The notes below the pieces were generated by a model. It was not told the DNA's origin. It saw only the letters and a list, made by a program, of their open reading frames with translations, and did not search any database. The translations under genes and the position numbers were made by a program. DNA of 45,463 nucleotides from Chitinophagaceae bacterium (GTDB lineage Bacteria > Bacteroidota > Bacteroidia > Chitinophagales > REEL01). Positions 7,664 to 41,828 of the stretch are shown here, one piece after another (the first letter of the stretch is position 1; each line of letters starts with the position of its first letter). The DNA is taken from NCBI GenBank assembly GCA_007695095.1, contig REEL01000119.1, positions 1 through 45,463 on the forward strand. Reading direction: 5' to 3'.

Positions 7664-10600
7664 TTATTTAAGAAGGTGAATCGTTCCGGTTTTATCACGC
7701 TCTACCATTTCATCATCTTCATAACGAACAAAGTAAACGTATGTACCATTTGGTTGAAGGCTGCCTTTAAAGGTTCCGTTCCATCCCATCTGGTCGTCAT
7801 TTGTTTCAAATACCAACTCACCCCAACGATTAAAAATCCGGAAGTACTTTAAGTTATAACGCCCAATCAAGAACACATTAATCGTAGCATTTTCACCTCC
7901 TCTGCCTGGAGCAAAAGCATTAGGTACGAATATGTCAGAAAGGAATTCTACTTCAATGAAAACAGAATCTGTACCTGTACAGCCATTCATGTTTGTCGCT
8001 GTAACATAATACCAGGTTGAACTATCAGGAGTTGCTATAGGTGAGCAACTATTGGCATTATCCAACCACATATCAGGTGACCAAACACAATCACTGGCAT
8101 CTATTGCTTCTAATTGAACGGTTTCACCCTGGAATATAGTTGTGATTCCTGTTTCTGAATCCGGTTGCGGATCTACAGTGGTAGCCGTAAGTGCCGGTGT
8201 GAATACAGTTGCTTCTATGCTATCTGTAATAGAACACCCCTCAGGACTGGTAGCTGTAAGGTAGTAAAAGCTTGAAATGTCATCTTCTGTATTATTTTCT
8301 AAAGAGATAATTGTATTTCCTACATTTGGATTATCTATTCCTTCTTCAGGTGACCAAACATAAGTATAACCCGGTAACCCTTGCGTTCCAATAGAAGCGG
8401 TTTCTCCCGGACAAACAAAAACATCTGTTCCGGCATCAACTTCAGGTATGCTTAAATCTACGGTTACTTCAGCAGAATTTACACAAGTAGTAGCTGTATT
8501 TATTACTGTTACGGTATATGTGGTTTCTACATCAGGAAACACTAATGGATTCTGTGTTTCTGTATCAACTATATTTACATCCGGTGACCAACTGTAATCA
8601 TTTCCTCCTGAAGCTGTCAGTTGAATCGTATCACCTAAACAAATCAGGGTATCATTAGAAACATTTACAGTAGGTAAAGGATTAACATTTACCAGAACAG
8701 TGTCGGTAATTACACAAATACCTTCTACAACTGTTACTACATATTGCGTATTTGTTTCTGGGAATACGGTTGGATTAGCAGAAGTGGTATCATCTATGAA
8801 GCTATTGGGAGTCCAGCTGTAATCAGTAGCTCCACTTACAAATAATTGTACTGAATCTCCTATACAAATATCCTGTTCATCACTTACGATAAGTTCCGGT
8901 ACAGGAATTACTTCTATTGTTATGGTATCAGAAACCGGAGGGCAATTATTAGAAGTTCCGGTAACTACATAAGTTGTTGTAGTCGTAGGGAAGGCCACAG
9001 GGTTTGAAATGTTAGCATCCGAGAGACCGGTAGCAGGCTCCCAGGTGAAATTTGGTGCACCACTTGCGCTTAGCTGTATAAATTCACCCTCGCAAATTGT
9101 AACAGTATCGGCATCGGGTAAAAGTGTCAGACTCAGCTCTGTAGCAACGCTTACTTCTACCGTGTCAGAAGCTACACAAAAATCATTTTCACCGGTTAGT
9201 ATATACTGAATAGTAGAAGTTGGAAACACTTCCGCATTAACTACTGTTGGGTCTGTCATAAAAGTGGAAGGAGACCAGTAAGAAGTGTCTGCATCTGAAA
9301 AAGCCTGAGTAAGTATTAGGGTATCATTCGTACAAATAATTTGATCCGGACCGGCAGATACCTGCGGTATTGGGATGACATTTACCATTATCTCGGCTGT
9401 ATCCGGCGGACATAACCCGATTCGACCGACTACAGTATATAGTGTTGAGTCTAAGGGGTTGGCTATCGGGTTCTTAATATTCGGGTCACTAAGAGTTGCT
9501 TCCGGAGTCCAATTATATAAAAAGGCACCCGAAGCATCTAATTGTACTGTTTCTCCTGCACAAACAGTTGTATCAGCGAATGGAACTTGTACATCAATAT
9601 TATCCTGAATAAATAAAGTTATACTTTGAAAGGCTTGACCTGTACACGGGTTTATAAGACTTAATGTTAAGCTGTCACCTCCTAAGTTTAATGAATCAAC
9701 AAGCACTTCAACGAGTAAGGAGACTGAAGTGTCACCCGGTTGAATAACTACACTGTCCGGTAAAGGATTGTAGTTAATGCCCGGCAGAGCCGTTCCGCTT
9801 TGATCAAAAAATATGGTAATAGGGTCTGAGCTTGTAAAGTTAGTAGAAAACTCAATAATCCCATTATTACAACCCGCTACAGCGAAAGGAATACCGGCTT
9901 CGGTGGTTACATCTAAAAATATTTCAGGACTACTTATCTCCTCAATAAATACACCTGAATTGAATGCGCCGTCAAAAACATCTGCCACAGCCAGTTTTAA
10001 AGTATAGGTTTGGCAAGGAACTACTTCAATCTCTGCCGTTAAAATGGTAGTTATACCATCAAATACTATAGATGAAAATGTTGGTGAGCCGGCTAATTCG
10101 TTATTGACAAATAAACTGGAGTATGCCAGTGATTCACCGGGGCCCGTACATCCACCTGTGCCAAAGATACCCGGCACTCCGGAGTTTATTGAATTAATGG
10201 CAACAGGTAAATTCGTGCCCGGAATGATTGCTATATTTTCCTGATTATAGTTTCCTCCTGCCGGATCCGGTCCGGTGATAAAAAACCCGAAAACATCATT
10301 AAATTCTGAACAAACGTAGTCCGGATATTCTTCCGAGCCAAATCTATATCTGAATCTAAGAGTGTCACCCTGAGGAATTACATTAAATTCCATAACACAA
10401 GCATCGTTTGTTGTTTGTGGTGCAACCAATTGGTTGAGAGTCGGATCCCCCGGAGTGCCTACTGTAGTACTCATAAAGAAGCTGGAAGGGTTAGCAACGT
10501 CGGTAACAATACCGGTAGTTAATAAAACACCCTCAGATATTCCCAGATTAGAGGTTCCTTCTTCAAAGCGGCCATAGGAATTTCCCCCACAGGTTATATT

Positions 10601-10753
10601 TACATTGGAAATAGTAACCCCTGAACCAACAAGGCTTTGCGCAAGTTGAACATCTGTTAATGTTTGGTCAATGACCAATTGACTCTTTACGGGTTTGTTA
10701 ATTAAAACAAACATAAAAACTAAAAAAAGTAGTATCGATGATTTTTTATTCAT
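7664..10753 (-). CDS. choice-of-anchor L protein with Ig-like repeats and type B T9SS C-terminal domain (paralogue 1)
   Basis: A 1029-residue exported protein. Domains in order: signal peptide (1-24); choice-of-anchor L domain (about 30-275, core FRYRFGSEEYPDYVC and FNDVFGFFITGP); a Calx-beta-like segment (about 285-385, GINYNPLPDSVVIQPGD); seven Ig/PKD-like repeats of about 75 residues (about 393-935), each with a CxG(D/E)xVQLxASG...YxWxP pattern; and a type B sorting domain (about 940-1029, FRIFNRWGELVFETN, GTYVYFVRY). It is therefore a likely T9SS substrate on the cell surface. The C-terminal domain is odd: the usual PxGDGxND-type loop reads PGRGGENATIN. It is about 85% identical to the neighbouring paralogue across the anchor domain. 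Its own promoter is at 10772-10803. Adhesion or matrix function is plausible but unproven. Confidence 0.9.
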   Translation of the reverse strand: MNKKSSILLFLVFMFVLINKPVKSQLVIDQTLTDVQLAQSLVGSGVTISNVNITCGGNSYGRFEEGTSNLGISEGVLLTTGIVTDVANPSSFFMSTTVGTPGDPTLNQLVAPQTTNDACVMEFNVIPQGDTLRFRYRFGSEEYPDYVCSEFNDVFGFFITGPDPAGGNYNQENIAIIPGTNLPVAINSINSGVPGIFGTGGCTGPGESLAYSSLFVNNELAGSPTFSSIVFDGITTILTAEIEVVPCQTYTLKLAVADVFDGAFNSGVFIEEISSPEIFLDVTTEAGIPFAVAGCNNGIIEFSTNFTSSDPITIFFDQSGTALPGINYNPLPDSVVIQPGDTSVSLLVEVLVDSLNLGGDSLTLSLINPCTGQAFQSITLFIQDNIDVQVPFADTTVCAGETVQLDASGAFLYNWTPEATLSDPNIKNPIANPLDSTLYTVVGRIGLCPPDTAEIMVNVIPIPQVSAGPDQIICTNDTLILTQAFSDADTSYWSPSTFMTDPTVVNAEVFPTSTIQYILTGENDFCVASDTVEVSVATELSLTLLPDADTVTICEGEFIQLSASGAPNFTWEPATGLSDANISNPVAFPTTTTTYVVTGTSNNCPPVSDTITIEVIPVPELIVSDEQDICIGDSVQLFVSGATDYSWTPNSFIDDTTSANPTVFPETNTQYVVTVVEGICVITDTVLVNVNPLPTVNVSNDTLICLGDTIQLTASGGNDYSWSPDVNIVDTETQNPLVFPDVETTYTVTVINTATTCVNSAEVTVDLSIPEVDAGTDVFVCPGETASIGTQGLPGYTYVWSPEEGIDNPNVGNTIISLENNTEDDISSFYYLTATSPEGCSITDSIEATVFTPALTATTVDPQPDSETGITTIFQGETVQLEAIDASDCVWSPDMWLDNANSCSPIATPDSSTWYYVTATNMNGCTGTDSVFIEVEFLSDIFVPNAFAPGRGGENATINVFLIGRYNLKYFRIFNRWGELVFETNDDQMGWNGTFKGSLQPNGTYVYFVRYEDDEMVERDKTGTIHLLK

Positions 10754-10836: not shown

Positions 10837-13800
10837 TTATCTTAATAATGTAACATTGCCTTTTATGATTTCTGTGTCACCTGTATGATCTCTTACAATT
10901 AAGTAATATACATAAACGGCAACCGGTTGTTCTGCTCCCTGAAATGTGCCGTCCCATCCAATGTTTTCATCGGTAGTTTCAAACAATAATTGTCCCCAGC
11001 GATTGAAAATCTTAAACTCTTCTAATTGATAGGTGCCGGTAAGTATAGGCTTTAGCACGTCATTTAATCCATCGCCATCCGGAGTAAAACCGCTTGGTAC
11101 TATTACTCCTTTTTCAAACTCTACAAAAATAGTAACGGAAGCTATAGCATCACAACCATCCGGACTAAGGCTTGTAACTGTATAAGTAGTGGTGGTATCC
11201 GGGCTCATAGAAACTGAACAGGAAAGAGGATTGTCAATCCCTGTTGTCGGGGACCAGCTACAGTCTACTCCATCAATTACATTTACAATTGCTGATTCAC
11301 CTTCCATAATTACATAATTACCTTGATTGTCAGCAGGTGGAGATACCACAAATATATCTGCCTGAGCAGATGGAAAGACCGTTACTGCGACTGTGTCATA
11401 TGCTACACATCCGTTTGCATCTGTAACTGCAAACACGTAATCTTCTATTAAATTAGAAGAACCGGGATTAGTAAGGCTTACTTCCGGATTTAGGATTTGG
11501 GCATTTGAGAGTCCACTAGTTGTTATCCATTCATAAGTATTTCCGGCTGCCGGGGATTGTGCATTTAAAAATCCGGAATCTCCTGTACAGAAACTGATAT
11601 CTTCACCGGCATCTGCAACAGGACCTTCAATAGTTACTGTCATTGAGTCTATATTGCTGCAACCGGTTAATGTATTTGTACCTACTACATAAAAAGTAGT
11701 CGTATTTTGTAATTCAGCTGTTGGGTTTTGCGTATCCGGATTGTCCAATAAATCTTCCGGTGACCAACTATAAACATTTGCTCCGGATGCGGATAATGTA
11801 AATTCTTCATTTGTGCAGGCGGTAAAATCATCTGCCGCAATAACATCCGGTAAATTATTGACTTCTACTGTTACAGTACCGGTAACATCACAAATGGCTG
11901 TGGTAGTTACAAGTGTATAGGTAGTAGTTGTTTGAGGGAAAGCTAAAACAGTCGAAACATCATCAGCTGAGAGGCTATTTGACGGAGACCAGGAGTATGT
12001 ATCCCCACCTTGTGCAGAGAGTTCAACTGTATCACCAATACAAATTACCTCATCTTGTGGTAACTGAAGGCCCGGGACAGGTATAACATTAACTGTAACA
12101 GAATCAGTTACCGGTGGACAATTATTTGAAGTAGCGACTACAACATAAGTCGTAGTATCTGTAGGTGTTGCTATAGGATTTGCTGAGTTTGGATTGTTCA
12201 AGCTTGCTGTTGGAGTCCATGAGTAATTTGCACCTCCGGTAGCAAAAAGTTGAACACTGTTTCCTTCACAAATGGAAGTATCTGCACTTACAGATAAATT
12301 TAATTCTGTTTCAACAAATATAATCATTGAATCTGTAAACGAGCAACCATTGTTGTCACCGGTAAAAAAATACTCTGTACTTACGGTTGGAAAAGCAACC
12401 GGATTTACAACATTCGGATCTACTAAACTGCCGGTCGGTTCCCAGCTCACACTATTAGCATCACTTATTGCATCACTGATTACGACCGAATCACCCTGAC
12501 AGATGGTTAAATCGGGACCGGCAAAAACAAAGGGCTGTGGGCTCACATTTATGGTGATTTCTGCTGTGTCGGGCGGACAGAGCCCAATCCGCCCTACGAC
12601 TTGATAAATGGTTGTATCTGTTGGGGTAGCAACAGGGTCGGCTATATTCGGGTTGTCAAGACTGTTAGTGGGTGTCCAATTATATAAAAAGGCACCTGAA
12701 ACACCCAATTGCACGCTTTCTCCTTCACATATTGTAGTATCTGTAAATGGCACTTCAATTTCAATTTGATTTTGAATGAATAAAACGACACTGTCAAATG
12801 CTTGATTTGTACATGGATTAATAAGACTTATAACTATTGAATCTCCACCTACACCGAATGTGTCTATTAGGGGTACTACTGTAACTGTTGCGGATGTATC
12901 TCCCGGCATTATTGTTACACTATCCTGAAAGGGTTCATAATTAATACCCGGGACAGCATCTCCTCCAATACTATAAAAAACAGTGATGGGATCCTGACTG
13001 GTAAAATTTGAAGTAAAAGTTAATATCCCATTATTGCAACCTGCGATAGCAAAGGGAGTGCCTGCTTCTGTTTCTATGCCTAAGGTGATTTCCGGGCTGG
13101 TTAACTCCTCAATGAAAACACCTGAATCAAAAGCTCCGTCAACGACATCTGCAACGGCAAGCTTTAGCGTATACGTTTCACAGGGAACCACTTCAATTTC
13201 AGCAGTTAAAGTAGTGGTGATGCCATCAAAGGCTATTGTTCCAAAGGTAGGAGATCCGGGTAACTCATTGTTTACATATAAGGCAGAATAAGCCAATGAC
13301 TCACCTGGACCATTACATCCACCGGCCCCAAATATACCCGGTATTCCTGAATTAATTGAGTTAATCGCAACCGGTAAATTAGTTCCGGGAATAATAGCGA
13401 TATTATTTTGATTATAATTTCCTCCGGCAGGATTTGGCCCGGAAATAAAAAATCCGAAAACATCATTAAACTGAGAACATACATAATCAGGATATTCTTC
13501 AGAACCAAATCTATACCTAAAACGTAGGGTGTCTCCTTGAGGGATTACATCAAACTGCATGACACAAGCATCATTAGTTGTTTGTGGAGCTACTATTTGA
13601 TTTAATGTCGGGTCTCCGGGTGTGCCAATAGTTGAACTCATGAAAAAGCTGGAAGGGTTGGCCACTTCTGTAACATTTCCGGTTGTTAATAATACGCCTT
13701 CAGGTAATCCGATATTTGATGTTCCGGCTTCAAAGCGACCGTATGAATTTGCTCCGCAAGTTATAGTTACATTTGAAATTGCAACCCCTGAGCCTACTAG

Positions 13801-13920
13801 ACTTTGTGCCAGTTGCTGGTTTGTTAACGTTTGGTCAATGATTAACTGTGCATGTATTGTATTATGTACAAAAAAGCTGAAACAGAAAATGAACAGAAAC
13901 TTATGTAGATTAGCATTCAT
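10837..13920 (-). CDS. choice-of-anchor L protein with Ig-like repeats and type B T9SS C-terminal domain (paralogue 2)
   Basis: A 1027-residue exported protein collinear with the downstream gene. It has a signal peptide ending near residue 25, a choice-of-anchor L domain (about 30-275, same FRYRFGSEEYPDYVC and FNDVFGFFISGP cores, no gaps relative to its paralogue), a Calx-beta-like segment, about seven Ig/PKD-like repeats with conserved cysteine pairs and YSWSP motifs, and a type B C-terminal domain (IVPSGFTPDGDGLNDV, FKIFNRWGQLLFETT). The sorting domain here has the canonical PDGDGLND loop that paralogue 1 lacks. It is probably exported by the T9SS and exposed on the cell surface. Similarity to the paralogue falls from about 85% in the anchor domain to clearly less in the repeats. 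Its likely promoter is at 14003-14034. Confidence 0.9.
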   Translation of the reverse strand: MNANLHKFLFIFCFSFFVHNTIHAQLIIDQTLTNQQLAQSLVGSGVAISNVTITCGANSYGRFEAGTSNIGLPEGVLLTTGNVTEVANPSSFFMSSTIGTPGDPTLNQIVAPQTTNDACVMQFDVIPQGDTLRFRYRFGSEEYPDYVCSQFNDVFGFFISGPNPAGGNYNQNNIAIIPGTNLPVAINSINSGIPGIFGAGGCNGPGESLAYSALYVNNELPGSPTFGTIAFDGITTTLTAEIEVVPCETYTLKLAVADVVDGAFDSGVFIEELTSPEITLGIETEAGTPFAIAGCNNGILTFTSNFTSQDPITVFYSIGGDAVPGINYEPFQDSVTIMPGDTSATVTVVPLIDTFGVGGDSIVISLINPCTNQAFDSVVLFIQNQIEIEVPFTDTTICEGESVQLGVSGAFLYNWTPTNSLDNPNIADPVATPTDTTIYQVVGRIGLCPPDTAEITINVSPQPFVFAGPDLTICQGDSVVISDAISDANSVSWEPTGSLVDPNVVNPVAFPTVSTEYFFTGDNNGCSFTDSMIIFVETELNLSVSADTSICEGNSVQLFATGGANYSWTPTASLNNPNSANPIATPTDTTTYVVVATSNNCPPVTDSVTVNVIPVPGLQLPQDEVICIGDTVELSAQGGDTYSWSPSNSLSADDVSTVLAFPQTTTTYTLVTTTAICDVTGTVTVEVNNLPDVIAADDFTACTNEEFTLSASGANVYSWSPEDLLDNPDTQNPTAELQNTTTFYVVGTNTLTGCSNIDSMTVTIEGPVADAGEDISFCTGDSGFLNAQSPAAGNTYEWITTSGLSNAQILNPEVSLTNPGSSNLIEDYVFAVTDANGCVAYDTVAVTVFPSAQADIFVVSPPADNQGNYVIMEGESAIVNVIDGVDCSWSPTTGIDNPLSCSVSMSPDTTTTYTVTSLSPDGCDAIASVTIFVEFEKGVIVPSGFTPDGDGLNDVLKPILTGTYQLEEFKIFNRWGQLLFETTDENIGWDGTFQGAEQPVAVYVYYLIVRDHTGDTEIIKGNVTLLR

Positions 13921-21542: not shown

Positions 21543-22160
21543 TTACACTAAGTCACTGATTTTACCAGTTTTCCATTTCATTTCTTTCAAAAAAGCTAAA
21601 TATTCCGGTAAAACATTTTTCAAATTTACTAAAGATTTATCGTTTTCGTGAAAAACTATGATGTCTCCGCCTTTGGTGATTTTTTTAAGGGTACCTAAAA
21701 TTTCAGCAGCACTTAAGTTGGTATCATAATCTCTGCTGAGGATGCTCCAAAAAACTATTTTGTTTTTTTTGATTAAATGTAAAAGTTGAAACAAACCTAT
21801 TTTACCGTAGGGCGGTCTGAAAAAATTAGTTTCTAATGCATCGGCACATTTATCGTAATTTTCAAAATAAACTTTGTTATTTGTACTCCAGCCATTTAAA
21901 TGATGCCAACTATGACTACCGATAAAGAAATTTAAATCTCTTACTTTTTTCGTCAAATCAGGAAATTTTTCAACCTGATTACCCAGGAAGAAAAAACTTC
22001 CGGTCATATTATTTTTATTCAGTTCATTTAAGATAAAATCTGTGCTTTCAGGATGAGGTCCATCATCAAAAGTGAGATAAACTGTATCTGATTTACCTTT
22101 AAAAATCAAATTATCATTGAAAAGTCGGAGATAATTAAACAGATATAGCCTTTTTGCCAA
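21543..22160 (-). CDS. polysaccharide deacetylase (NodB homology domain)
   Basis: A 205-residue protein that is almost entirely a NodB domain: LTFDDGPHPEST (about 29-40, catalytic and metal aspartates), SHSWHH (82-87, metal histidines) and RPPYGK (115-120). Family members remove N-acetyl groups from chitin-like or peptidoglycan glycans in a metal-dependent way. There is no signal peptide or membrane anchor from the chosen start, so the site of action is unclear. The start is a TTG (22158-22160), as no ATG precedes the domain in frame. It diverges from the large SprB-repeat gene and lies just upstream of tatD. Confidence 0.85.
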   Translation of the reverse strand: MAKRLYLFNYLRLFNDNLIFKGKSDTVYLTFDDGPHPESTDFILNELNKNNMTGSFFFLGNQVEKFPDLTKKVRDLNFFIGSHSWHHLNGWSTNNKVYFENYDKCADALETNFFRPPYGKIGLFQLLHLIKKNKIVFWSILSRDYDTNLSAAEILGTLKKITKGGDIIVFHENDKSLVNLKNVLPEYLAFLKEMKWKTGKISDLV

Positions 22161-22252
22161 AATTCACTATTAGAGAAAAAAATTTCTTAAAATTAGAAAA
22201 AAAATTCTACTTTCGGATAAAATTTTCTTTCGTTACTAAATTTAAAAAAACC

Positions 22253-25200
22253 ATGCTGTTACTTAATAAAAAATGCATTTTTATTTTTATATGTTTTGCT
22301 TTATTGTTGAATTTCAAACCGGTCTTTTCACAATGTGTTAGTAATAATATTACCGGAGACTTAATAATAACTTCAAATACAAATTTATCAGGTACATATA
22401 CAGTAAGCGGTATTTTTAGAGTAGATCCCGGAGTAACGGTAACAGTTACTCCATTTTCAGTAAACGGATGTGGTGAGTTAATAGTTTTTGCTGATGAGAT
22501 AGAAGTTTTAGGTACTATAGATGCGAATCATTCAGGTTTTTCAGGTGGTGAAGGTGGTTTGCCGGGTGGTTGCTGGGCAGAAGGAAACTTCACTGACTGC
22601 CGTGGAATCAGTGATTGCTGGACTAAAGATAACTGTCGTTCATTACGAACGGTAGGTGGTTTTGCCGGTGCAGAGGGTATGGGCCCCGGTCGTGGGTTAG
22701 GCGGTGATAACGGGAATGATGGATTGGGGTCAAAGCAAAGCTGTGGTACATTTGGGGATAATGGAGGAAGAGTTCACGGAAGTGGCGGAGCCGGTGGCGG
22801 TGGCGGAGGAAGTTATGGTGGAGTCGGAGGAGATGCAACTGTCGGAGGCAGCGGAGGTGGAGCAAGTGTATCCAATCAAACAAGCTGTGGAGGTTTTGGA
22901 GGTGGTACTGCCGGTGCGGGAGGAAATCAATTACTGCCGTATCAGTTGGATCAGTCTTATGATATAAATATGGGCTCCGGTGGCGGAGGTGCAGGCGGCG
23001 GAGGAAGAGGCCGGCAGGCAGGTACTCCGGGTGAGGCAGGCGGAGCCGGTGGAGGATTAGTGAGACTGCAGGCAAATAGTGATATTACAGTTAGCGGTAC
23101 AATATTGGCAAACGGACAAAATGGTGGCAACGGTGGAAATGGTGGCCAACCCGGTCGTTCACCAAGATGCTGTGATGATGCTTGCAACGGTATGAATGAA
23201 GCTACATTTACCGGTGGTGGAGGTGCAGGAGCAGGATCCGGTGGTGGTTCCGGGGGTGGAATAATGTTGGAGAGTCTTGCCGGAACAGCCAATATAACAG
23301 GTAATTTACAGGCATCAGGTGGAAATGGCGGGAATGGCGGAAACGGTGGAACTCCTGCATTTTCAGATAGTCATAATGCTTTATTTTGCAGCTCTACATC
23401 AGGTAGCTCTTCAGTTGGCAGTTCTGCCGGTAATGGTGGAGGCGGTGGAGGCGGCAGAATTAAAATATTTGTAAATCCCTGCCTAAATAATGTTATTACA
23501 CCCACTCTTGAAACAGATGGCGGTAATGGAGCTTCTAATGGAGCAAACGGTAGCTTTTTTCAGGGAGCTAATCCAAATGCAGTTTTGCCTTTGGCAGATG
23601 CCGGTACAGACGCCACAATTTGTGATGGAGACGTCACAACTCTAAGCGGACAAGGTTCCGGAGGTGTAGGTGTTTTATCTTATTCTTGGAGCCCGTCTAC
23701 CGGTTTGAGCGCAACAAATATTCCGAATCCGCAGGCAAATCCGGGAAGTACTACTACATATACACTAACGGTAACTGATGCCAATGGATGTCAGGGGACT
23801 AGTGATGTAACCGTTTTTGTGACCAACTCAATTAATGATAATATCATTGCTGAAAATCAATTTTTGTGTGGCCCCGGAATTGCAGATACTATTACTGGGC
23901 TCATTCCAACCGGAGGAACGGGTAGTTATGGCTATCAATGGGAAACCAGTATAAACAATGGCGCTACCTGGTCAAATATTGGTGGAGCAAATAGCCCAAA
24001 TCTTTTACCCGGACAGATTACTCAAAATACATGGATTAGAAGAATTGTAACATCCGGTCCTTGTTCTTCTGTTAGTAATATTGTTGAGATTACCGTTTCT
24101 TCTCAACTCTTTGTTGATGCAGTAAATGTAAATGATGTGAGTTGTTTTAACGGTCAGGACGGAAGTGCAACTGTAACTGTTTCAGGTGGAGCCGCTCCTT
24201 TTTCTTATAACTGGTCTTCAGGAGATACTACTTCTATAGCCGGTGGATTATCAGTTGGAACTTATACGGTTACAGTTTCAGATCAGGCTGGTTGCGAAGT
24301 TATTGAGAGTTTGGCTGTTTCTCAACCTGATTCTATAATGCTTGAGCTGGTTTCAACAGATGCAACCTGCAACGGTGCATCAGACGGCTCAATTGATTTG
24401 ACTGTAAGTGGTGGAGTGCAACCTTACTCTTATTTATGGAGTAATTTTCAAATCACGCAAAATATAAATCAAATTTCGGCGGGCACTTATGTGGTAGTTG
24501 TAACTGATGCTAATGGTTGTCAGGAAGTTGCTCAGACAACAATTGAAGAATCAGCTCCTTTAGAAATTACAGCTGATAAAACAGATGTACTTTGCAACGG
24601 AGAGAATACAGGAAGTATAGAGCTCACTGTATTAAATGCTACCAATCCGGTAAATTATCAATGGTCAGATGGAAACTCTTCCTCTGTAAATTCAGATTTA
24701 TCTGCCGGCAGTTATCAGGTTACGGCTACAGATGCTAATGGATGCGAGGCAACAGCATCTTTTTCAATACAGGAACCCTCTGCCATTATTGCTGAAATCG
24801 ACGGGCAAAATTTACTTTGTTTTGGAGACCAAAACGGATGGGTAAGTGTAAATGTTCAAGGTGGAAATCCGGATGTAAATGATGGATATACTTACAATTG
24901 GAGTGCCGGTGTAAATCAGACAGGGCATATAGCGGATAATTTAGAGGCCGGCAGTTACAGTGTTACTATAACAGATAATAATAATTGTGAGATAGTTAAG
25001 TCAATTACATTAACAGAACCGGATTTGATTGAAGTATCTGCTTCGGTAACGGATGCAGCTTGTTTTGGAGAAAACAATGGATCAGTGGAATTAGCAGCTA
25101 CCGGTGGTAACGGCGCTCCTTTTACTTACAGTCTTGATGGTATAGCATTTACTCCGGATACGGATTTTAGCAATTTAAATGCCGGAATCTATAATGGTGT

Positions 25201-25792
25201 AGCTAAAGATAATAAGGGATGTACCGATTTTGTAACCTTTGAAATTTCTCAACCGGAGGAAATAATTATAAACACAGGTCCGGACTTATTTATTAGCAGT
25301 GGAGAAACGGTAACTCCTGAAATTGCAATTATGCCGGAGGGTATTCAGGCAGACAGTATTAGCTGGAGCCCTCAACAAGGTCTGAGCTGTTTTGATTGTC
25401 TGATTCCTGATTTTTCTCCCGGACAAACTACTTTATATACCATTTCTTTTTGGGATGAGGACGGCTGTTATAGCGAGGCAAGTATTACTGTATTTGTAGA
25501 ACAAAGAGAAGAGTATAAGATTTACATTCCAAATGCATTTAGTCCAAATTCAGACGGAACTAATGATATTTTTCAGGTATTTGGTTACGACATTGAACTA
25601 TTGGAAATGCGAATTTTCAATCGTTGGGGAGCAGAAGTGTACACCAATACAAATATGAGTTTAAGTGACGGATGGGACGGTACTTATAATGGTTCGGAAG
25701 CTACCGGAGGAACTTATGTTTATGTGGCGAATGTTCGATTCACAAATGGTGTGGAAAGAACCCTGAGAGGTAGTCTTGTTCTGATTCGTTAA
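22253..25792 (+). CDS. glycine-rich SprB-repeat surface protein with type B T9SS C-terminal domain
   Basis: A 1179-residue exported protein. The ATG at 22253 is chosen because it starts the signal peptide (MLLLNKKCIFIFICFALLLN, cleaved after VFSQ); an upstream in-frame TTG would add a basic, non-signal tail. Order: beta-helix-like start (about 30-90), a Gly-rich region (about 90-400, many GGxGG runs), an Ig-like repeat (about 450-525), a further Ig-like domain, then five SprB-type repeats (about 620-1010), each with a xCxGxxxGxxxxxVxGGxxPxxYxW pattern and an AGxYxVTVTDxxGC ending, then a type B sorting domain (FSPNSDGTNDIFQV, MRIFNRWGAEVYTNT). SprB repeats are named for the gliding adhesin of Flavobacterium; an adhesive role is inference. 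A terminator follows at 25828-25856. Confidence 0.88.
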   Translation: MLLLNKKCIFIFICFALLLNFKPVFSQCVSNNITGDLIITSNTNLSGTYTVSGIFRVDPGVTVTVTPFSVNGCGELIVFADEIEVLGTIDANHSGFSGGEGGLPGGCWAEGNFTDCRGISDCWTKDNCRSLRTVGGFAGAEGMGPGRGLGGDNGNDGLGSKQSCGTFGDNGGRVHGSGGAGGGGGGSYGGVGGDATVGGSGGGASVSNQTSCGGFGGGTAGAGGNQLLPYQLDQSYDINMGSGGGGAGGGGRGRQAGTPGEAGGAGGGLVRLQANSDITVSGTILANGQNGGNGGNGGQPGRSPRCCDDACNGMNEATFTGGGGAGAGSGGGSGGGIMLESLAGTANITGNLQASGGNGGNGGNGGTPAFSDSHNALFCSSTSGSSSVGSSAGNGGGGGGGRIKIFVNPCLNNVITPTLETDGGNGASNGANGSFFQGANPNAVLPLADAGTDATICDGDVTTLSGQGSGGVGVLSYSWSPSTGLSATNIPNPQANPGSTTTYTLTVTDANGCQGTSDVTVFVTNSINDNIIAENQFLCGPGIADTITGLIPTGGTGSYGYQWETSINNGATWSNIGGANSPNLLPGQITQNTWIRRIVTSGPCSSVSNIVEITVSSQLFVDAVNVNDVSCFNGQDGSATVTVSGGAAPFSYNWSSGDTTSIAGGLSVGTYTVTVSDQAGCEVIESLAVSQPDSIMLELVSTDATCNGASDGSIDLTVSGGVQPYSYLWSNFQITQNINQISAGTYVVVVTDANGCQEVAQTTIEESAPLEITADKTDVLCNGENTGSIELTVLNATNPVNYQWSDGNSSSVNSDLSAGSYQVTATDANGCEATASFSIQEPSAIIAEIDGQNLLCFGDQNGWVSVNVQGGNPDVNDGYTYNWSAGVNQTGHIADNLEAGSYSVTITDNNNCEIVKSITLTEPDLIEVSASVTDAACFGENNGSVELAATGGNGAPFTYSLDGIAFTPDTDFSNLNAGIYNGVAKDNKGCTDFVTFEISQPEEIIINTGPDLFISSGETVTPEIAIMPEGIQADSISWSPQQGLSCFDCLIPDFSPGQTTLYTISFWDEDGCYSEASITVFVEQREEYKIYIPNAFSPNSDGTNDIFQVFGYDIELLEMRIFNRWGAEVYTNTNMSLSDGWDGTYNGSEATGGTYVYVANVRFTNGVERTLRGSLVLIR

Positions 25793-35240: not shown

Positions 35241-36278
35241 CTATTTTTTTGTTTCCGGATAATTCGGTAAATCTGATTTTAAGACAACCTGAGATTTTTC
35301 AACTATATCTTTAGTTATATTGTCTATGTCTGATGCGGAGGCATATAAAAGTTCCAATACTTTTTCTCTTTCAGAATCTTTAATCATATTTGTTTTTAAT
35401 AGATCTACCAAGCCTAATAGTCTGGCTACAGGGGCTCTTACGACATGCGATTGTGTCCAGGCTATTTCACGTAATCTACTATTTTGTTGGTCTATTTCTT
35501 TTAAATGAAAAGTCCTCTCTGTTACATCTGTGGCAATGACTATTTCAGCTTTTTTATCTTTAAAATGTATGCTGTTTTTGATAATTTCAACAAAAATGAT
35601 GCTTTTATCTTTCTTTTGGTGGCAGATCGGCTCAATAGTCAGCAGGTTATTTCTGATGGCAGGTTTTATTTTCAATTTTTTAAAAAGTAAATTGTCCTTA
35701 GGCTTAATGTCACTTTCAGTCATTTCCAGAAATTCTTCTTTGGTATAGCCATAGTGTTTAATGGTAGCTTTGTTTACGTCTAAGAAGCCTTTTGTTTTTG
35801 CATCACTTACCCACATTGGAGCAGGACTTGAATGAAATAAATTCACATACCTTTTTTCAGATTCACGTAAAGACTGAACAAAGCGATGTCTTTCCAATGC
35901 GTAAAGAATGCTTTTGTACAAAATCAAAGCATTGATAGTATCTTTAATTAGATAATCTGAAAATCCTAAAGACAATGAATTTGTTGCAAAATCTAAATCT
36001 GTATAGCCGGTTAAGATTATTACAGGAGTAATTTCACTTATAAGTCCGGCTTTTTGTGTAATGATTTCTTTAGTAACATCCGGGAGTGAGAGATCCAGCA
36101 AAATAATATCAAAAAAATAGTTTTTATTATCGAGCTTATTCAGGCACTCTTTAAACTTTTTTACATGAGTAATTTCTGCGTTCGGCATATACTCTTCAAT
36201 ATATTCTTCTACAAGCAGAAAATCTCCCGGGTTGTCTTCTACCACTAAGATTTTATATACATTCTCTTGAAATGTCAT
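35241..36278 (-). CDS. receiver-PAS-DHp signalling protein lacking an ATPase domain
   Basis: A 345-residue protein: an N-terminal receiver domain (1-125) with acidic pocket E14/D15, phospho-acceptor D62 in IILLDLSLPD and K112; a PAS domain (about 144-255, LFHSSPAPMWVSDAKTKGFLDVNKATIKHYGYT); a short coiled linker; and a DHp-like helix with H278 in AWTQSHVVRAPVARLLGL. The protein ends at 345, so the HATPase that normally follows in this Bacteroidota family is missing. The stop is genuine at 35241, with no downstream in-frame catalytic domain. It could act as a phosphotransfer protein or be phosphorylated in trans by the kinase two genes upstream. It is the last gene of a three-gene operon with one-base overlaps. 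Confidence 0.85.
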   Translation of the reverse strand: MTFQENVYKILVVEDNPGDFLLVEEYIEEYMPNAEITHVKKFKECLNKLDNKNYFFDIILLDLSLPDVTKEIITQKAGLISEITPVIILTGYTDLDFATNSLSLGFSDYLIKDTINALILYKSILYALERHRFVQSLRESEKRYVNLFHSSPAPMWVSDAKTKGFLDVNKATIKHYGYTKEEFLEMTESDIKPKDNLLFKKLKIKPAIRNNLLTIEPICHQKKDKSIIFVEIIKNSIHFKDKKAEIVIATDVTERTFHLKEIDQQNSRLREIAWTQSHVVRAPVARLLGLVDLLKTNMIKDSEREKVLELLYASASDIDNITKDIVEKSQVVLKSDLPNYPETKK

Positions 36279-36718
36279 TAAGCGTTTCCTTTTGGAAGTT
36301 TAACAAGCTGAAACCAAAAATCTTCTATAGTATAAATAGCACTCAGGAATTCACTCATTTCGACAGGCTTTGTGATGTAGCAGTTTGCATGATGCTCATA
36401 AGACAAATCTATATCGGTTTTAGAGGAAGATGTGGTTAGCATAATAACCGGTATTTTTTTTGTTTTTTTATTACTTTTAATGACTTCTAATACTTCGTGA
36501 CCATTTTTTTTAGGTAAATTCACGTCGAGCAGAATCAAATCGGGTGCTTGTTGATTAACATATTTACCTTTTTGAAATAAATAATCCAAAGCTTCCTTCC
36601 CGTTTTTTACAACATCTACTCTATTGATGATTTTTCTTTCTTCCAGAGCTTCAATAGTTAAAATTATATCTCCTTCATTATCTTCTACAAGAAGTATGTG
36701 AGCGCTCTTCATAATCAT
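36278..36718 (-). CDS. response regulator, single receiver domain (Rcp1-like)
   Basis: A 146-residue stand-alone receiver: acidic pocket E12/D13 in LLVEDNEGD, phospho-acceptor D65 in LILLDVNLPKKNG, T95/T96 in VIMLTTSS and K117 in CYITKPVE. The wording matches the Rcp1 group, receivers partnered with phytochrome-like kinases in cyanobacteria and with PAS/GAF kinases in Bacteroidota. It has no DNA-binding or enzymatic output, so it must act through protein contact or as a phosphorelay step. It is flanked by the sensor kinase (upstream) and the receiver-PAS-DHp protein (downstream), with TAATG overlaps on both sides, so all three are translationally coupled. Confidence 0.93.
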   Translation of the reverse strand: MIMKSAHILLVEDNEGDIILTIEALEERKIINRVDVVKNGKEALDYLFQKGKYVNQQAPDLILLDVNLPKKNGHEVLEVIKSNKKTKKIPVIMLTTSSSKTDIDLSYEHHANCYITKPVEMSEFLSAIYTIEDFWFQLVKLPKGNA

Positions 36719-39700
36719 TATTTTTTTAAGGTAAAGTAAAATGTACTTCCTTCATTCGGTGTTGATTCAACTCGAATTTTACCTCCCATATTATCAATAA
36801 TCTTTTTTACAATGGCCAGACCCATACCGGTTCCACTATATTCCTCTTTGTCATGAAGTCGCTGAAAAATAATAAATATCTTTTCAAAATATTCCTCTTC
36901 AATGCCAATGCCATTATCTTTTACTGAGAATTCCCAATATTCATCTTCTTCTTTACTGTTTATTTCTATAATAGGTTTCACTTTTTCCCTACTATATTTT
37001 ATAGAATTGTCAATTAGGTTATGGAAAATTTGAGTTACAGGGGTTTTGAAGCTGTAAATTTCAGGTAGTTTATTTTTGATTAAAGTAACAGCCTTTTGAC
37101 CTATTAACTCTTTTCTCAGAGTTGAATAATCATCTATGATTTTATTTATGTTTACGGCTTCTTTTATTTCGTTTAATCGGCCAACTCTTGAAAAATGCAG
37201 GAGATCCAGAATAATTTGTCGCATTCTCTTAGCTCCATCTACAGCAAAAAAGATATACTGACGAGCTTTTTCATCTAATTTATCGTTATATTTTTTTTCC
37301 AATTGGGATAAAAAGCGAGTAACCATTCTTAATGGCTCCTGAAGATCGTGAGACGCAATGTAGGCAAATTGTTCCAGCTCAGCATTGGAAATTTGAAGCT
37401 CTCTTGAATGATTTCGAAGCTTTACATTCAGACTTCGGAGTTTTTTTTCATAATTTTTTCTGAAAGTTATATCTGTCATTGCCCCAATCATTCTTTCTAC
37501 CTCGTTTGATTTGTTTCGAACAACAATACCTCTGTCTACTACATATGCATATGATTCATTGGATTTTTTAAAGCGGTATTCTGCTTCAAAATGTTTTTCG
37601 TCATTCAATTGTATTACTTCATTAAGGTTGCCTATCACTCTTTCCAAGTCTTCAGGATGTATTCTGTCTGTCCAGGTTTTTAAATTAGGCTTATGGTCTT
37701 CAATTTTATATCCAAAAAGCGTTTCAAATCCTTTTCCCCAACTCAGGGTTTTCTTTTTAAAATCCCAGTCCCAGATTGCATCATTAGTTGCTTCTGCTGC
37801 AATTTCAAAGCGTTCATTGCTTTGACGTAACTTTTCTTCCGCTATTTTTCGGGTAGTTATATTTTTAAAATACGTAGAAAGTCCTTTTTTTGAAGGGTAA
37901 ATGCTTAACTCCATCCAAATATTCAATGAGGGATAAAACTCTTCAAAATGAACAACCACTCCGGATTTCATTGCTTTTTGATATTTTTTGAAAAAGCTGA
38001 GTTCTTCAGAATCTGAAAAAACTTCCCAGAGATTTTCACCTAAAATATTTTGTCGTTTAACTCTTAAGATTTTTTCTGCTTCTCTATTCCAGTAGGTTAT
38101 CATCCAGTTTTTGTCAATTGTAAAGAAGCCGTCTTTGATACTTTCCAGTATCGTATTTTTTTCATTTAAAATGGTTTTTAACTCAATTTCCGCCTTTTTT
38201 TTTTGATTTATATCCTGAAAACTTCCGCTTAGCTTAACACATTTATTGTTTTCATATTCAGCGCGACCAATTATTCTTATCCAGACTTCTCTTTTTTTAG
38301 CGGTGATTATGGGCATTTCAAAGTCAATAGGCTTCTTATTTTCAATGCAATCAGTAAAAATTTTATTGATGGTTTTCTGATAGTTTTCTTTATAAAAACC
38401 TATGGTGTTTGTAGTGTCCGGCACAAAATCATCATCTACTTCATGGATTTGCCTGGTTATGTCTGACCAGTAAACTGTGTTTTTAACCAAATCTACTTCC
38501 CAACTGCCAATTCTGGCTAACTTATTAGCATTGTCTAATAAATTCTGCATGTTTTTCTGTTCGGTTATATCCCTTCCGTAACAAAATGCAAGCCCTTCCT
38601 CTCGGATTAGGTCAGATGAACTCCATGCAATCCATTTTATATCTCCGGATTTAGTGATATAGCGATTGACAAAGTTGTTAGAGTGCCTTTCTCCACTTAT
38701 TGTTTCTTTAAATTCTTTTAGGGTATCTTTTGTGTCTGTTGAAAAGACAAAGTTTTCAAATGGTTGAGAAGTTAATTCAATATCTGTATATCCCATCAGC
38801 TTTGTAAAAGCCGGGTTAACTTTTCTAAAGTGTCCTTCCGGACCTGCTATAGCCAAGATGTCAGGTGAATGTTGAAAAAAGCTGTTTAGTTCGATCTCGG
38901 ATTGTTTACGAATTATTTCAGAACCAATAAAATTTCCCATTTGCTTTAATACATCAGTAAAATATGGGTATAATCTATTAGACTTTTCAATGCCGCATAC
39001 CAAAACACCTATAATCTCTTTGTTGTGAAAAAGGGGTATGCCAAACACTTTAGTCAGCCCGGATTTTTGAGCAGCTTTTTTTCGAATGAATAAGTTTTTT
39101 TTATCTACATTATCCCAAATATTAGACTTTTTAGTTTCCCAAACGGTTCCGGGCAATCCTTCTCCCCGAAAAAAGCTTTTTACAGACTGACTTTTTGCAT
39201 AAAATGTGTAGCCAACAGTTGTGTTTGTAAACGTAGCTGCTTGTAAAAGTTTTGAGGAAGTTGAATCTGTTAACCAAATTTCAGTCAGATTGAATTCGCC
39301 AAATTTGTATATATATTGTAAAAGCTTTTTTAAACAGCCTTTAATTGTTTTTTCCCGGTTGAAAATATTACTGATAGCATCTACGATTTTTTTGCGATTT
39401 TCCTGAATTATTTGTTCTGTTCTGTCATTACATACCATCAGGCAACATTTTTTTCCTTCAAGGAGTAGTTCGCTTGTAGTGATTTCTACTTTCACTACTT
39501 TTTGGTCACCGACTAAAAGTGTATGGAGCTCTTTTTGTTTGAGATTTGATAAATCTAAAGTTTCTTGAGAAAGTTTTTGTAAACCTATTTCGGCTAAACC
39601 CATTTTTTTTATTTCATTTGCGGAGAAACCAAATAGCTTTTTGGCAGCAGCATTAGCATCTAAAAATTTATTTTCTTCATAACTGAAAAGTAATACAGCC

Positions 39701-40284
39701 TGAGGGCTGCTTCGAAAAAGGGTTTCATACTTTAGTTTTGAATTTTTAATGTCTAAACGACTTTTCCTTAATTCTAATAGTGCAACAACCTGATTTGCTA
39801 AGTTCTTTAAAGCTCTTTTTTGATAATCGTTTATCTTTTTTTCTTTATTATCAACCACACATAATGTACCTATTGGATTTCCCCGGGGAGTAATTAAAGG
39901 AACTCCGGCATAAAATACAAAATTTGGCTTTCCGGTAACTAAAGGGTTGTTTTTGAATCGGTTGTCTTTTCTTGCATTTAAAACGATGAAAATATCATCA
40001 GGGCTTTTTACTGCATGTTTGCAAAAAGAATGTTCAATGGGTGTTTCATTTATATCTATTCCATAGCCGGACTTAAAAAATTGTCTTTCAGTATCAAGTA
40101 AACTAACAAAGGAAATAGGTACATTACAAATATGCGCGATCAACTCAGTTATGTTATCATACTCTTTTTCAGGCAAAGTGTCTAGTATATTATATGCCTG
40201 CAAAGTGTTTCTACTTTGAATGTATGTATTAGTTCTAGTCATTTTTAAAGAAGTTATCTCAAACCAATTATTAAAGTTAGTCAT
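36718..40284 (-). CDS. multi-sensor hybrid-free histidine kinase (GAF, PAS x5, HisKA, HATPase)
   Basis: An approximately 1188-residue soluble kinase without signal peptide or membrane segments. Order: GAF (about 25-175), PAS (185-295), GAF (about 305-465), then four PAS domains (about 470-585, 590-700, 710-820 and 825-950), a coiled linker, HisKA with H979 in IASHDLQEPLRMV, and an HATPase (N-box HNLIDNSIKYS, G-box NGIGI and GTGMGLAIV). SHDLQEPLR is typical of phytochrome-like kinases. No bilin-binding phytochrome domain is visible, so the signal is unknown. A TTG at 40293 would add three residues; a later ATG at 40242 (MTRTNTYIQ) also fits family N-termini. Head of a three-gene operon. Confidence 0.9.
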   Translation of the reverse strand: MTNFNNWFEITSLKMTRTNTYIQSRNTLQAYNILDTLPEKEYDNITELIAHICNVPISFVSLLDTERQFFKSGYGIDINETPIEHSFCKHAVKSPDDIFIVLNARKDNRFKNNPLVTGKPNFVFYAGVPLITPRGNPIGTLCVVDNKEKKINDYQKRALKNLANQVVALLELRKSRLDIKNSKLKYETLFRSSPQAVLLFSYEENKFLDANAAAKKLFGFSANEIKKMGLAEIGLQKLSQETLDLSNLKQKELHTLLVGDQKVVKVEITTSELLLEGKKCCLMVCNDRTEQIIQENRKKIVDAISNIFNREKTIKGCLKKLLQYIYKFGEFNLTEIWLTDSTSSKLLQAATFTNTTVGYTFYAKSQSVKSFFRGEGLPGTVWETKKSNIWDNVDKKNLFIRKKAAQKSGLTKVFGIPLFHNKEIIGVLVCGIEKSNRLYPYFTDVLKQMGNFIGSEIIRKQSEIELNSFFQHSPDILAIAGPEGHFRKVNPAFTKLMGYTDIELTSQPFENFVFSTDTKDTLKEFKETISGERHSNNFVNRYITKSGDIKWIAWSSSDLIREEGLAFCYGRDITEQKNMQNLLDNANKLARIGSWEVDLVKNTVYWSDITRQIHEVDDDFVPDTTNTIGFYKENYQKTINKIFTDCIENKKPIDFEMPIITAKKREVWIRIIGRAEYENNKCVKLSGSFQDINQKKKAEIELKTILNEKNTILESIKDGFFTIDKNWMITYWNREAEKILRVKRQNILGENLWEVFSDSEELSFFKKYQKAMKSGVVVHFEEFYPSLNIWMELSIYPSKKGLSTYFKNITTRKIAEEKLRQSNERFEIAAEATNDAIWDWDFKKKTLSWGKGFETLFGYKIEDHKPNLKTWTDRIHPEDLERVIGNLNEVIQLNDEKHFEAEYRFKKSNESYAYVVDRGIVVRNKSNEVERMIGAMTDITFRKNYEKKLRSLNVKLRNHSRELQISNAELEQFAYIASHDLQEPLRMVTRFLSQLEKKYNDKLDEKARQYIFFAVDGAKRMRQIILDLLHFSRVGRLNEIKEAVNINKIIDDYSTLRKELIGQKAVTLIKNKLPEIYSFKTPVTQIFHNLIDNSIKYSREKVKPIIEINSKEEDEYWEFSVKDNGIGIEEEYFEKIFIIFQRLHDKEEYSGTGMGLAIVKKIIDNMGGKIRVESTPNEGSTFYFTLKK

Positions 40285-40448: not shown

Positions 40449-41828
40449 TTGTATTGCATAATAGATATTGAAACGACCGGTGGGAATCATAGTACAGGAA
40501 AAATAACCGAAATTGCTGTTTATAAACACGATGGCCAAAAAATTATTGATGAGTTTATAAGTCTGGTAAATCCGGAGACGGAAATTCCAAGATATATAAG
40601 TTTTTTGACCGGCATTACTGAGGAAATGGTTGCCGATGCACCGAGGTTTTTTGAAATAGCCAAGCAGATAGTTGAAATTACCGAGGGGAATATTTTTGTT
40701 GCTCATAATGTTAATTATGATTACAGTTTTATTTGCAAGGAATTTAAAGAACTCGGTTATGTGTTTTCAAGGGAAAAGATATGCACAGTTAGAAAAAGCA
40801 GACAGCTATTTCCCGGTTTACCCTCTTACTCTTTAGGTAAATTATGCTCCAGTCTTGGAATTTCTGTACACGACAGACATAGGGCGGCCGGTGATGCATT
40901 GGCTACCGTTGCACTATTTGAAAAGCTTTTAAAGCTTGAGCCGAAGATGAAGACTCAAACTGTCACTTCTTATAAGTATTTCTCGGGCTTAGAATCAAAA
41001 ACTTATTATCAGGAAATTAATCACTTACCGGAAAAAACAGGTATTTATTATTTTCGGAATGAGAAGGATGAGATTATTTATATCGGCAAGAGCAAAAACA
41101 TTAAAAAAAGAGTTTTAACTCATTTGAGGCTCAGCAAATCTGAGCGGACAATACTTATGCAACAGGAGATTCACTCAATAGATTATGAACTGACTGGCTC
41201 AGAGTTGGTATCTCTGATAAAGGAATCAGGAGAAATAAAAAGGTTTCAGCCCCGCTATAATCGTGCGCGAAGGAAAGAAAACTATCCCTTTGCCATATAC
41301 AGTAGTGTTGATTTGTTTGGGTATATACATTTTACCTTTGGAAAAACCGATTCAGCGAAAAAGCCAATAGCATTATTTGCTTCTAAAATGGAGGCCGGGA
41401 AAAGAATGTTGCAATTATGTGAAGCTTTTGAACTTTGTTACGGACTTTGCGGAGTGGGCGATTGCAGTAAGAGTTGCATTCACTTTTCAATGGGTAATTG
41501 TTTGGGTGCCATGAAACAAAAAGAAAAGTCTGAAAGCTATAACCGCCGTGCAGAAAAGCTAATTGCTACACTTGAATATGATTTGCCGGATGCTGTGCTT
41601 ATTGATAAAGGAAGATCGGAGGAGGAAATGAGTTGTGTTTTAGTTGAAAATGGAGTTTTTAAAGGTTATGGTTATGCGGATAAAAACTATGTAAGGAGTA
41701 TAGAAGATTTGCGGGATTGCATTCAGCTGATGGAAGAAAACAGAGATATAAAAAGCATTTTGAAACACTTTATCAGTAAAAACAAAGTTGAAAAAATAAT
41801 TCCTTTGAATGATATGACTACTTTGTAG
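40449..41828 (+). CDS. DnaQ-type exonuclease fused to a GIY-YIG nuclease domain
   Basis: A 459-residue fusion. Residues about 1-165 form a DEDDh 3'-5' exonuclease (Exo I YCIIDIETTGG with D6/E8; AHNVNYDYSFICKEF; HRAAGDALATV, with the Exo III histidine-aspartate). Residues about 195-275 form a GIY-YIG domain (TGIYYFRNEKDEIIYIGKSKNIKKR), the UvrC N-terminal endonuclease fold. The C-terminal part has a cysteine cluster (ELCYGLCGVGDCSKSCIHFSMGNC) like the zinc or Fe-S region that follows in UvrC/Cho relatives. A DNA-repair or proofreading role is likely; this arrangement is known in Bacteroidota and other bacteria as a Cho-like fusion. The start is TTG 40449, as no better start is in frame. Confidence 0.88.
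   Translation: MYCIIDIETTGGNHSTGKITEIAVYKHDGQKIIDEFISLVNPETEIPRYISFLTGITEEMVADAPRFFEIAKQIVEITEGNIFVAHNVNYDYSFICKEFKELGYVFSREKICTVRKSRQLFPGLPSYSLGKLCSSLGISVHDRHRAAGDALATVALFEKLLKLEPKMKTQTVTSYKYFSGLESKTYYQEINHLPEKTGIYYFRNEKDEIIYIGKSKNIKKRVLTHLRLSKSERTILMQQEIHSIDYELTGSELVSLIKESGEIKRFQPRYNRARRKENYPFAIYSSVDLFGYIHFTFGKTDSAKKPIALFASKMEAGKRMLQLCEAFELCYGLCGVGDCSKSCIHFSMGNCLGAMKQKEKSESYNRRAEKLIATLEYDLPDAVLIDKGRSEEEMSCVLVENGVFKGYGYADKNYVRSIEDLRDCIQLMEENRDIKSILKHFISKNKVEKIIPLNDMTTL

Follow-up and report, generated by a model that had tools for sequence, protein, structure and literature searches.

A receiver-PAS protein with an ATPase-free histidine module as a probable built-in relay step in a sensor kinase operon of Bacteroidota

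What can a protein do that carries the histidine box of a sensor kinase and no ATPase domain? The question is raised by an operon in a 45,463-nucleotide stretch of DNA from a Chitinophagaceae bacterium (assembly GCA_007695095.1, contig REEL01000119.1), the whole of which is called the window here. Three open reading frames (ORFs) lie on its minus strand in the order sensor kinase, lone receiver (RR1) and a 345-residue REC-PAS protein with a C-terminal HisKA-like module; this module, in the protein and in its relatives, will be called DHp*. The genes are joined by one-base stop/start overlaps, as an earlier sequence-only reading had stated, with TAATG found at both junctions. We consider it fairly probable that the operon encodes a cytoplasmic multi-step phosphorelay, which would run from the kinase to Asp62 of the third protein, then to His278 and on to a receiver. 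Judged by its homologues, the REC-PAS-DHp* protein is probably a built-in relay step, not a broken kinase.

The Pfam scan of the 345-residue protein found Response_reg, PAS and a sub-threshold HisKA match (20.8 bits, or 24.9 bits for the window's own domain alone; cut-off 26.9) and no HATPase domain. The absence of an ATPase domain claimed by the sequence-only reading is thereby borne out, and the phospho-acceptor Asp62 and the His278 of a DHp-like helix are located where that reading had placed them. The protein thus has the phospho-acceptor histidine of HisKA kinases in a HisKA-like DHp domain, and no CA (HATPase_c) domain follows it. The HisKA model matches nine of the nine members of the DHp* profile at E up to 1 (best E 2.3e-8), and no HPt domain (PF01627) was found among Pfam matches up to E 1 to the 345-residue protein and the DHp* members. 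DHp* is modelled as a two-helix hairpin, whereas HPt domains have four helices in one chain. In the AlphaFold2 model of the full chain, REC and PAS are followed by a hairpin with arms at residues 253-295, broken after residue 279, and 301-334; the C-terminal region modelled alone gave the same hairpin, with a predicted local distance difference test score (pLDDT) of 89.4. The chain ends 11 residues past the second hairpin helix in the model, leaving no degenerate CA-like C-terminal domain. The best fold matches of the whole chain are the blue-light photoreceptor 4gcz, the sensor kinase 4i5s and, third, LvrB (8vc9).

A DHp* profile was built from nine C-terminal domains and searched in 395 genomes of the phylum, 198 of the order and the genome of the window itself, all of these surveys being centred within the window's phylum. 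Among the matches listed, one of at least 62 bits was found in 33 of the 395 phylum genomes, 10 of which are labelled as not belonging to the window's class; in every one of the 33, the match that we opened is kinase-less. The own genome has one domain of this kind (122.1 bits, or 118 in another search), and its next match scores 36.4 bits. We classified 155 unique hits by the presence of a catalytic domain downstream; from this and the later counts we first removed entries that repeat a domain or C-terminus, ORFs truncated by the end of a locus and short-flank genes marked '?', and the sampled loci lean towards the best hits. At 60 bits or more, the catalytic domain is present in 0 of the 77 hits, and the proteins terminate 0-58 residues past the domain. 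Between 50 and 60 bits 11 hits are kinase-less and 6 have a catalytic domain, and below 50 bits 55 have one, 5 do not and 1 is cut off. The five low-scoring kinase-less hits are at our loci L017, L100, L095 (a 72-residue ORF), L128 and L023, that of L128 being a kinase split over two ORFs and that of L023 an ORF with its stop shortly past a canonical box. The missing ATPase is consistent among the homologues of at least 60 bits, and DHp* is, by these profile matches, a distinct and widespread family. A scan with six short peptide patterns found one distant locus, in Pontibacter. A plasmid search found relatives in 3 of 72,556 records (Emticicia, whose lineage belongs to Bacteroidota, Bernardetia and Persicobacter); two of the three are annotated as PAS proteins and the third has no annotated feature. 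Two genomes, both from a single family that is not in the window's class, show an expansion: each has at least seven kinase-less DHp* genes of 60 bits or more, mostly encoding large multi-PAS proteins (G217: L134, L147, L150, L154 and L160; G303: L072, L148, L151, L153, L158, L161 and L167).

Neighbouring genes were counted for 34 unique REC-bearing and 65 REC-less DHp* proteins of at least 50 bits, fewer where the flank was short, and a kinase was called upstream if encoded within 2.2 kb. A kinase is found upstream of 29 of the 33 REC-bearing DHp* genes, 3 of 21 REC-less genes and 10 of 17 genes for complete REC-PAS kinases. Similarly, RR1 is directly upstream in 21/34, 0/37 and 8/20 of these groups. 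In some relatives a second lone receiver, RR2, lies directly downstream of the DHp* gene (14 of the 34 genes with REC, 9 of the 65 without). The lone receivers that directly follow 87 DHp* genes comprise 19 RR2 and no RR1, and those after 33 SHDLQEP kinases 16 RR1 and 1 RR2; the SHN[LV]R kinases share RR2 with DHp* (7 RR2 and no RR1 among 10). Such counts and their p values are guides only, the p values treating related genes as independent and the RR1 and RR2 profiles having been built from genes at those positions. The REC domain of REC-bearing DHp* proteins looks like their input from the kinase. Variants of the operon were also observed. In one locus (L128:3-5630) the kinase upstream of the REC-PAS-DHp* gene is split into a 1738-residue protein ending after DHp and a 136-residue CA ORF one base later, which could be a frameshift or a natural split. 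In a longer version (L046:3747-7071 and L047:5642-8951), RR1 and a REC-PAS-PAS-DHp* gene are separated by a gene for a REC-PAS protein, whose histidine box in L046 reads EIHDEVGQ.

We counted residues across the 76 unique domains that reach 60 bits and are kinase-less, and compared them with 57 kinase-bearing domains from the same loci. The histidine is kept in all 76, and the loss of H278 in short-form homologues that the sequence-only reading had allowed for was not seen; because the same histidine recurs in every one of these homologues, the module is more than chance. Arg at H+3 (76/76), Pro at H+5 (75/76) and Trp at H-4 (60/76) are also common. Position H+1 is Glu in 14 of the 76 domains, Val, Ile or Leu in 46 and Asn at least once (L075), compared with Asp, Asn or Glu in 57 of 57 kinase-bearing domains. 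In HisKA kinases the acid at H+1 is needed for kinase and not for phosphatase activity, and Thr or Asn at H+4 the reverse (PMC3510030). With H+1 free to vary, the residue required for autokinase activity appears dispensable in DHp*. By alignment, the equivalent of Asp62 is present in 32 of the 34 REC-bearing DHp* proteins and in 29 of the 29 that are kinase-linked; it is missing in L134 and L167, two of the five REC-bearing genes that are not kinase-linked or not judgeable. The REC domains of these two proteins also lack the conserved Lys, and their DHp* histidine is retained.

In the mechanism that we propose, the kinase would autophosphorylate and hand its phosphoryl group to two receivers, namely its Rcp1-type cognate RR1 and the REC domain of the REC-PAS-DHp* protein, at Asp62. 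The group would pass from Asp62 to His278 on the DHp* hairpin within the same protein, and His278 would donate it to the Asp of a further receiver: RR2 in operons that have it and, for the present genome, either RR1 or an unlinked receiver. The PAS domain may gate the step from Asp62 to His278. On this route DHp* would therefore be a transfer-only DHp, fused to its own input receiver and PAS. We infer the transfer steps and their direction, dimerisation and PAS gating. The presence of REC tracks a kinase neighbour, Asp is lost only without a demonstrated kinase, the histidine is invariant and the autokinase acid is variable, all of which fits a relay. The genome context, too, is consistent with receiver-to-receiver transfer via the DHp histidine, as predicted for a phosphotransferase. 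The sequence-only reading had proposed a His-Asp-His relay with H278 as a transfer site or a docking decoy; the transfer site is strengthened by the kinase neighbourhood and the conserved Asp62, and the decoy has become less likely.

Several observations weigh against this relay. There is no RR2 gene in this operon or in the window, and the final target, which the sequence-only reading called unknown, can be narrowed to RR2 in some relatives; an orphan RR2 was not found among the places opened in the own genome, where the best match (100.5 bits) lies behind another kinase. RR2 follows 3 of 19 REC-PAS complete kinases, which is not clearly different from 14 of 34 for the corresponding DHp* genes (p 0.07), and SHDLR-type kinases are followed by either receiver type (5 RR1 and 6 RR2 of 18). 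Moreover, RR2 follows 19 of 87 DHp* genes and 16 of 85 complete kinases (p 0.71); an enrichment of RR2 specific to DHp* was rejected on this count, only the receiver type being different. Three of the 29 kinase-linked proteins (L124, L126 and L128) have a changed acidic pair in REC. An argument from H+4 would be weak, as Thr or Asn at this position does not discriminate DHp* (1/76) from the kinases (8/57). Finally, the models show DHp* as a two-helix hairpin, and its fold match lacks specificity. Its superposition on HK853 (4jav; Z 8.6, 83 aligned residues, root-mean-square deviation 2.5) is no better than that of unrelated hairpins, and the assignment to the DHp fold therefore rests on sequence; a fold search with the hairpin alone gave no match at E 0.001 or below.

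The DHp* protein could instead be one half of a split kinase, with His278 phosphorylated in trans with ATP by the CA domain of the operon kinase or of another kinase, DHp* passing the group to a receiver and REC serving only for regulation. For EnvZ, an isolated DHp domain accepts phosphoryl from a CA domain supplied separately, and 29 of the 33 REC-bearing cases have a complete kinase gene upstream. A precedent is provided by LvrA/LvrB, in which REC phosphorylation switches a DHp-CA module (PMC13269768, PMC5863495). However, the acid at H+1, required for HisKA autokinase activity (PMC3510030), is Glu in just 14 of the 76 domains and replaced by Val, Ile or Leu in 46, and the REC-less DHp* genes, which would be most in need of a kinase, have one upstream in only 3 of 21 cases. 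We regard a split kinase as unlikely.

We also doubt that DHp* is a docking or dimerisation module, which would form homo- or heterodimers or bind receivers as a decoy or scaffold, its histidine staying unphosphorylated in the working cycle. DHp domains do dimerise, and a RetS chain is among the weak sequence matches (E 0.0013), RetS being a kinase that acts by binding another kinase. Archaeal REC-PAS-HisKA proteins have likewise been proposed to work via protein-protein contacts (PMC5847659). A decoy, however, needs no nucleophile, and the histidine is kept throughout despite variation at H+1 and other positions.

It is quite improbable that DHp* is a phosphatase of phosphorylated RR1 or RR2. 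Such an activity has been suggested for archaeal proteins with HisKA and without HATPase (PMC5847659), and PhyT was initially taken for a phosphatase (PMC5898713). The Thr or Asn at H+4 that is needed in four HisKA kinases (PMC3510030) is found in a single DHp* domain; this objection is weak, and we dropped it as strong evidence because the kinases of the same loci rarely have the residue either.

In a domain tree of 90 kinase-less and 57 kinase-bearing domains, gappy partial domains having been left out, one branch (support 0.862) holds 88 of the 90 kinase-less and none of the kinase-bearing domains, the two outside it being those of L128 and L100; the tree is a guide only, since the profile to which its 81 positions were aligned came from kinase-less seeds, a possible bias towards this split. 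The single branch argues that DHp* is not a recently decayed kinase, and on this tree the kinase-less state is old in the module. Within DHp*, five gene pairs from other genomes differ far less at nonsynonymous (pN) than at synonymous sites (pS), from 0.064 vs 0.490 in the closest pair to 0.197 vs 0.758. In favour of a truncated, decaying kinase one may cite the parallel operon of the same genome (L002/L052), whose third slot is taken by a complete REC-PAS-kinase. This reading can be rejected with near certainty, the kinase-less forms being one clade, with ends at most 58 residues past the domain in 77 of 77, five pairs of relatives being under purifying selection, and the DHp of the L052 paralogue scoring 20.8 bits against the DHp* profile where that of the window scores 118. 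A tree of the REC-PAS parts (27 DHp* and 18 kinase forms) gave no single clade; the two kinds of C-terminus intermingle on it at weak support, a hint of module swapping.

By analogy, the relay step assigned to DHp* would work like Spo0B, ChpT or PhyT, without their degenerate catalytic part. Spo0B and ChpT, which we propose as functional analogues, are dimeric histidine phosphotransferases derived from kinases; they keep a degenerate catalytic part and are not known to have a REC or PAS domain. Both have been named as degenerated kinases (PMC5898713). No such CA-like C-terminal domain is left in the DHp* homologues, given where their chains end. PhyT of Sphingomonas melonis, in the relay Pak-SdrG-PhyT-PhyR, uses one histidine to move the phosphoryl group from a single-domain receiver to a regulator, as proposed for DHp* (PMC5898713). 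It differs in being a membrane protein whose authors suspect degeneration of the catalytic domain, and their passages on PhyT mention no fused REC (PMC5898713); in the operon protein the input receiver and DHp form one chain with PAS between them. LvrA/LvrB of Leptospira resembles the operon in combining a kinase with a REC-headed DHp protein, without a DNA-binding domain, and its kinase phosphorylates the REC Asp of the partner; LvrB, as described in the passages cited, differs in retaining a CA domain, autophosphorylating and having no PAS (PMC13269768, PMC5863495). The entries for clostridial sporulation phosphotransfer proteins in one review have HATPase (PMC11210211).

A close likeness is also seen to archaeal proteins with HisKA and no HATPase, a family noted early in A. 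fulgidus (PMC1183210) and including REC-PAS/GAF-HisKA proteins such as AF_1472, with partners given as unknown (PMC5847659). They have an N-terminal REC and/or PAS/GAF and a C-terminal HisKA-like domain with a conserved histidine, and the 345-residue protein, with sensor domains and such a C-terminal domain, falls within their definition (PMC5847659). They differ in belonging to Archaea, and the account of the class describes no operon with a kinase and receivers (PMC5847659). HisKA-without-HATPase proteins are thus an already known, uncharacterised class in archaea, and the DHp* operon form is a variant of that kind.

The other two proteins of the operon are set out with the third in Table 1. 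The kinase, which would have 1191 residues from a TTG nine bases further out, contains two GAF and five PAS regions in our reading of the Pfam and NCBIfam matches, one PAS region (about residues 594-705) being without a separately printed stretch of its own in the domain output, followed by HisKA and HATPase_c; the seven sensor domains of the sequence-only reading are therefore recovered. Averaged over 19 residues, hydropathy peaks at 1.62 (within the first GAF), 0.79 and 1.31 in the three proteins; with no peak clearly transmembrane, this agrees with a cytoplasmic location. RR1 is similar over nearly its whole chain to RcpA (1k68, E 7.4e-37) and Rcp1 (1i3c, E 1.8e-33). The operon thus resembles Cph1/Rcp1-type pairs in that RR1 falls in the Rcp1/RcpA sequence family, and differs in the GAF/PAS sensors of its kinase, for which the Pfam scan gave no PHY domain. 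Because 9 of 13 printed receiver homologues start at the residue equal to Met3, the overlap between the kinase and receiver genes may be unused.

Table 1. Features of the operon, in coordinates of the window
Feature	Position	Strand	Evidence
Sensor histidine kinase, 1188 aa (ATG)	36718..40284	-	ORF, Pfam, NCBIfam, hydropathy; ASHDLQEPLRM box
Kinase HisKA/DHp domain	37183..37377	-	Pfam PF00512, 32.7 bits, residues 973-1037 of the 1191-aa ORF
Kinase HATPase_c (CA) domain	36724..37041	-	Pfam PF02518, 92.8 bits, residues 1085-1190; sole ATPase domain found in the operon
RR1, lone receiver, 146 aa, Rcp1/RcpA family	36278..36718	-	Pfam Response_reg, 74.1 bits; Met3 (36712) may be the true start
REC-PAS-DHp* protein, 345 aa, no ATPase domain	35241..36278	-	ORF, Pfam, AlphaFold2 (pLDDT 84.5, predicted template modelling score (pTM) 0.52)
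REC domain, residues 10-114	35937..36251	-	Pfam PF00072, 43.4 bits
Codon of Asp62, predicted phospho-acceptor	36093..36095	-	D in 32 of 34 aligned REC-bearing DHp* proteins
PAS domain, about residues 143-254	35517..35852	-	Pfam PF00989, 24.1 bits; TIGR00229, 50.3 bits
DHp* module, helical hairpin, residues 253-334, with EIAWTQSHVVRAP box	35277..35522	-	AlphaFold2 models, family profile
Codon of His278, predicted phosphoryl carrier	35445..35447	-	Sequence, position, conservation in homologues

The long ORFs that flank the operon on either side are on the opposite strand. An RNase_T/DnaQ-like exonuclease fused to a GIY-YIG (UvrC-like) domain is encoded at 40449-41828 (+). Large proteins with CHU_C type IX secretion domains are found at 7664-10753 (-), 10837-13920 (-) and 22154-25792 (+), with Ig_7 domains in two neighbours and SprB repeats in one; proteins of this kind are in keeping with Bacteroidota. 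The parallel operon of the own genome (L052, contig C127) consists of a GAF/PAS-type kinase, a lone receiver and a complete REC-PAS-HisKA-HATPase kinase, and in its lone receiver the second residue of the acidic pair is replaced by Ser (FIESNEGG).

No description of the DHp* family in Bacteroidota was recognised in the literature, as judged by the titles and abstract openings of top-ranked results, with most subscription journals outside the coverage. Proteins with a kinase-like histidine box and no ATPase domain are easily misnamed, and the archaeal ones are mostly annotated as kinases, none of them having been studied by experiment according to the account of that class (PMC5847659). The DHp* family is a testable case, with an invariant histidine in close homologues and a kinase and receivers in one operon for most REC-bearing members. 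If the relay is true, it is a layer absent from the signalling maps of Bacteroidota. We suggest tentatively that DHp* proteins may form a phylum-wide class of sensor-gated, ATPase-free DHp phosphotransferases in Bacteroidota. In the operon form made up of kinase, Rcp1-like receiver, REC-PAS-DHp* and RR2, phosphoryl would then run His-Asp-His-Asp. A single protein would supply both middle stations, separated by a PAS sensor, which would let the signal be read a second time at the point of transfer, and the REC-less forms would be stand-alone sensory phosphotransferases connecting unlinked two-component systems.

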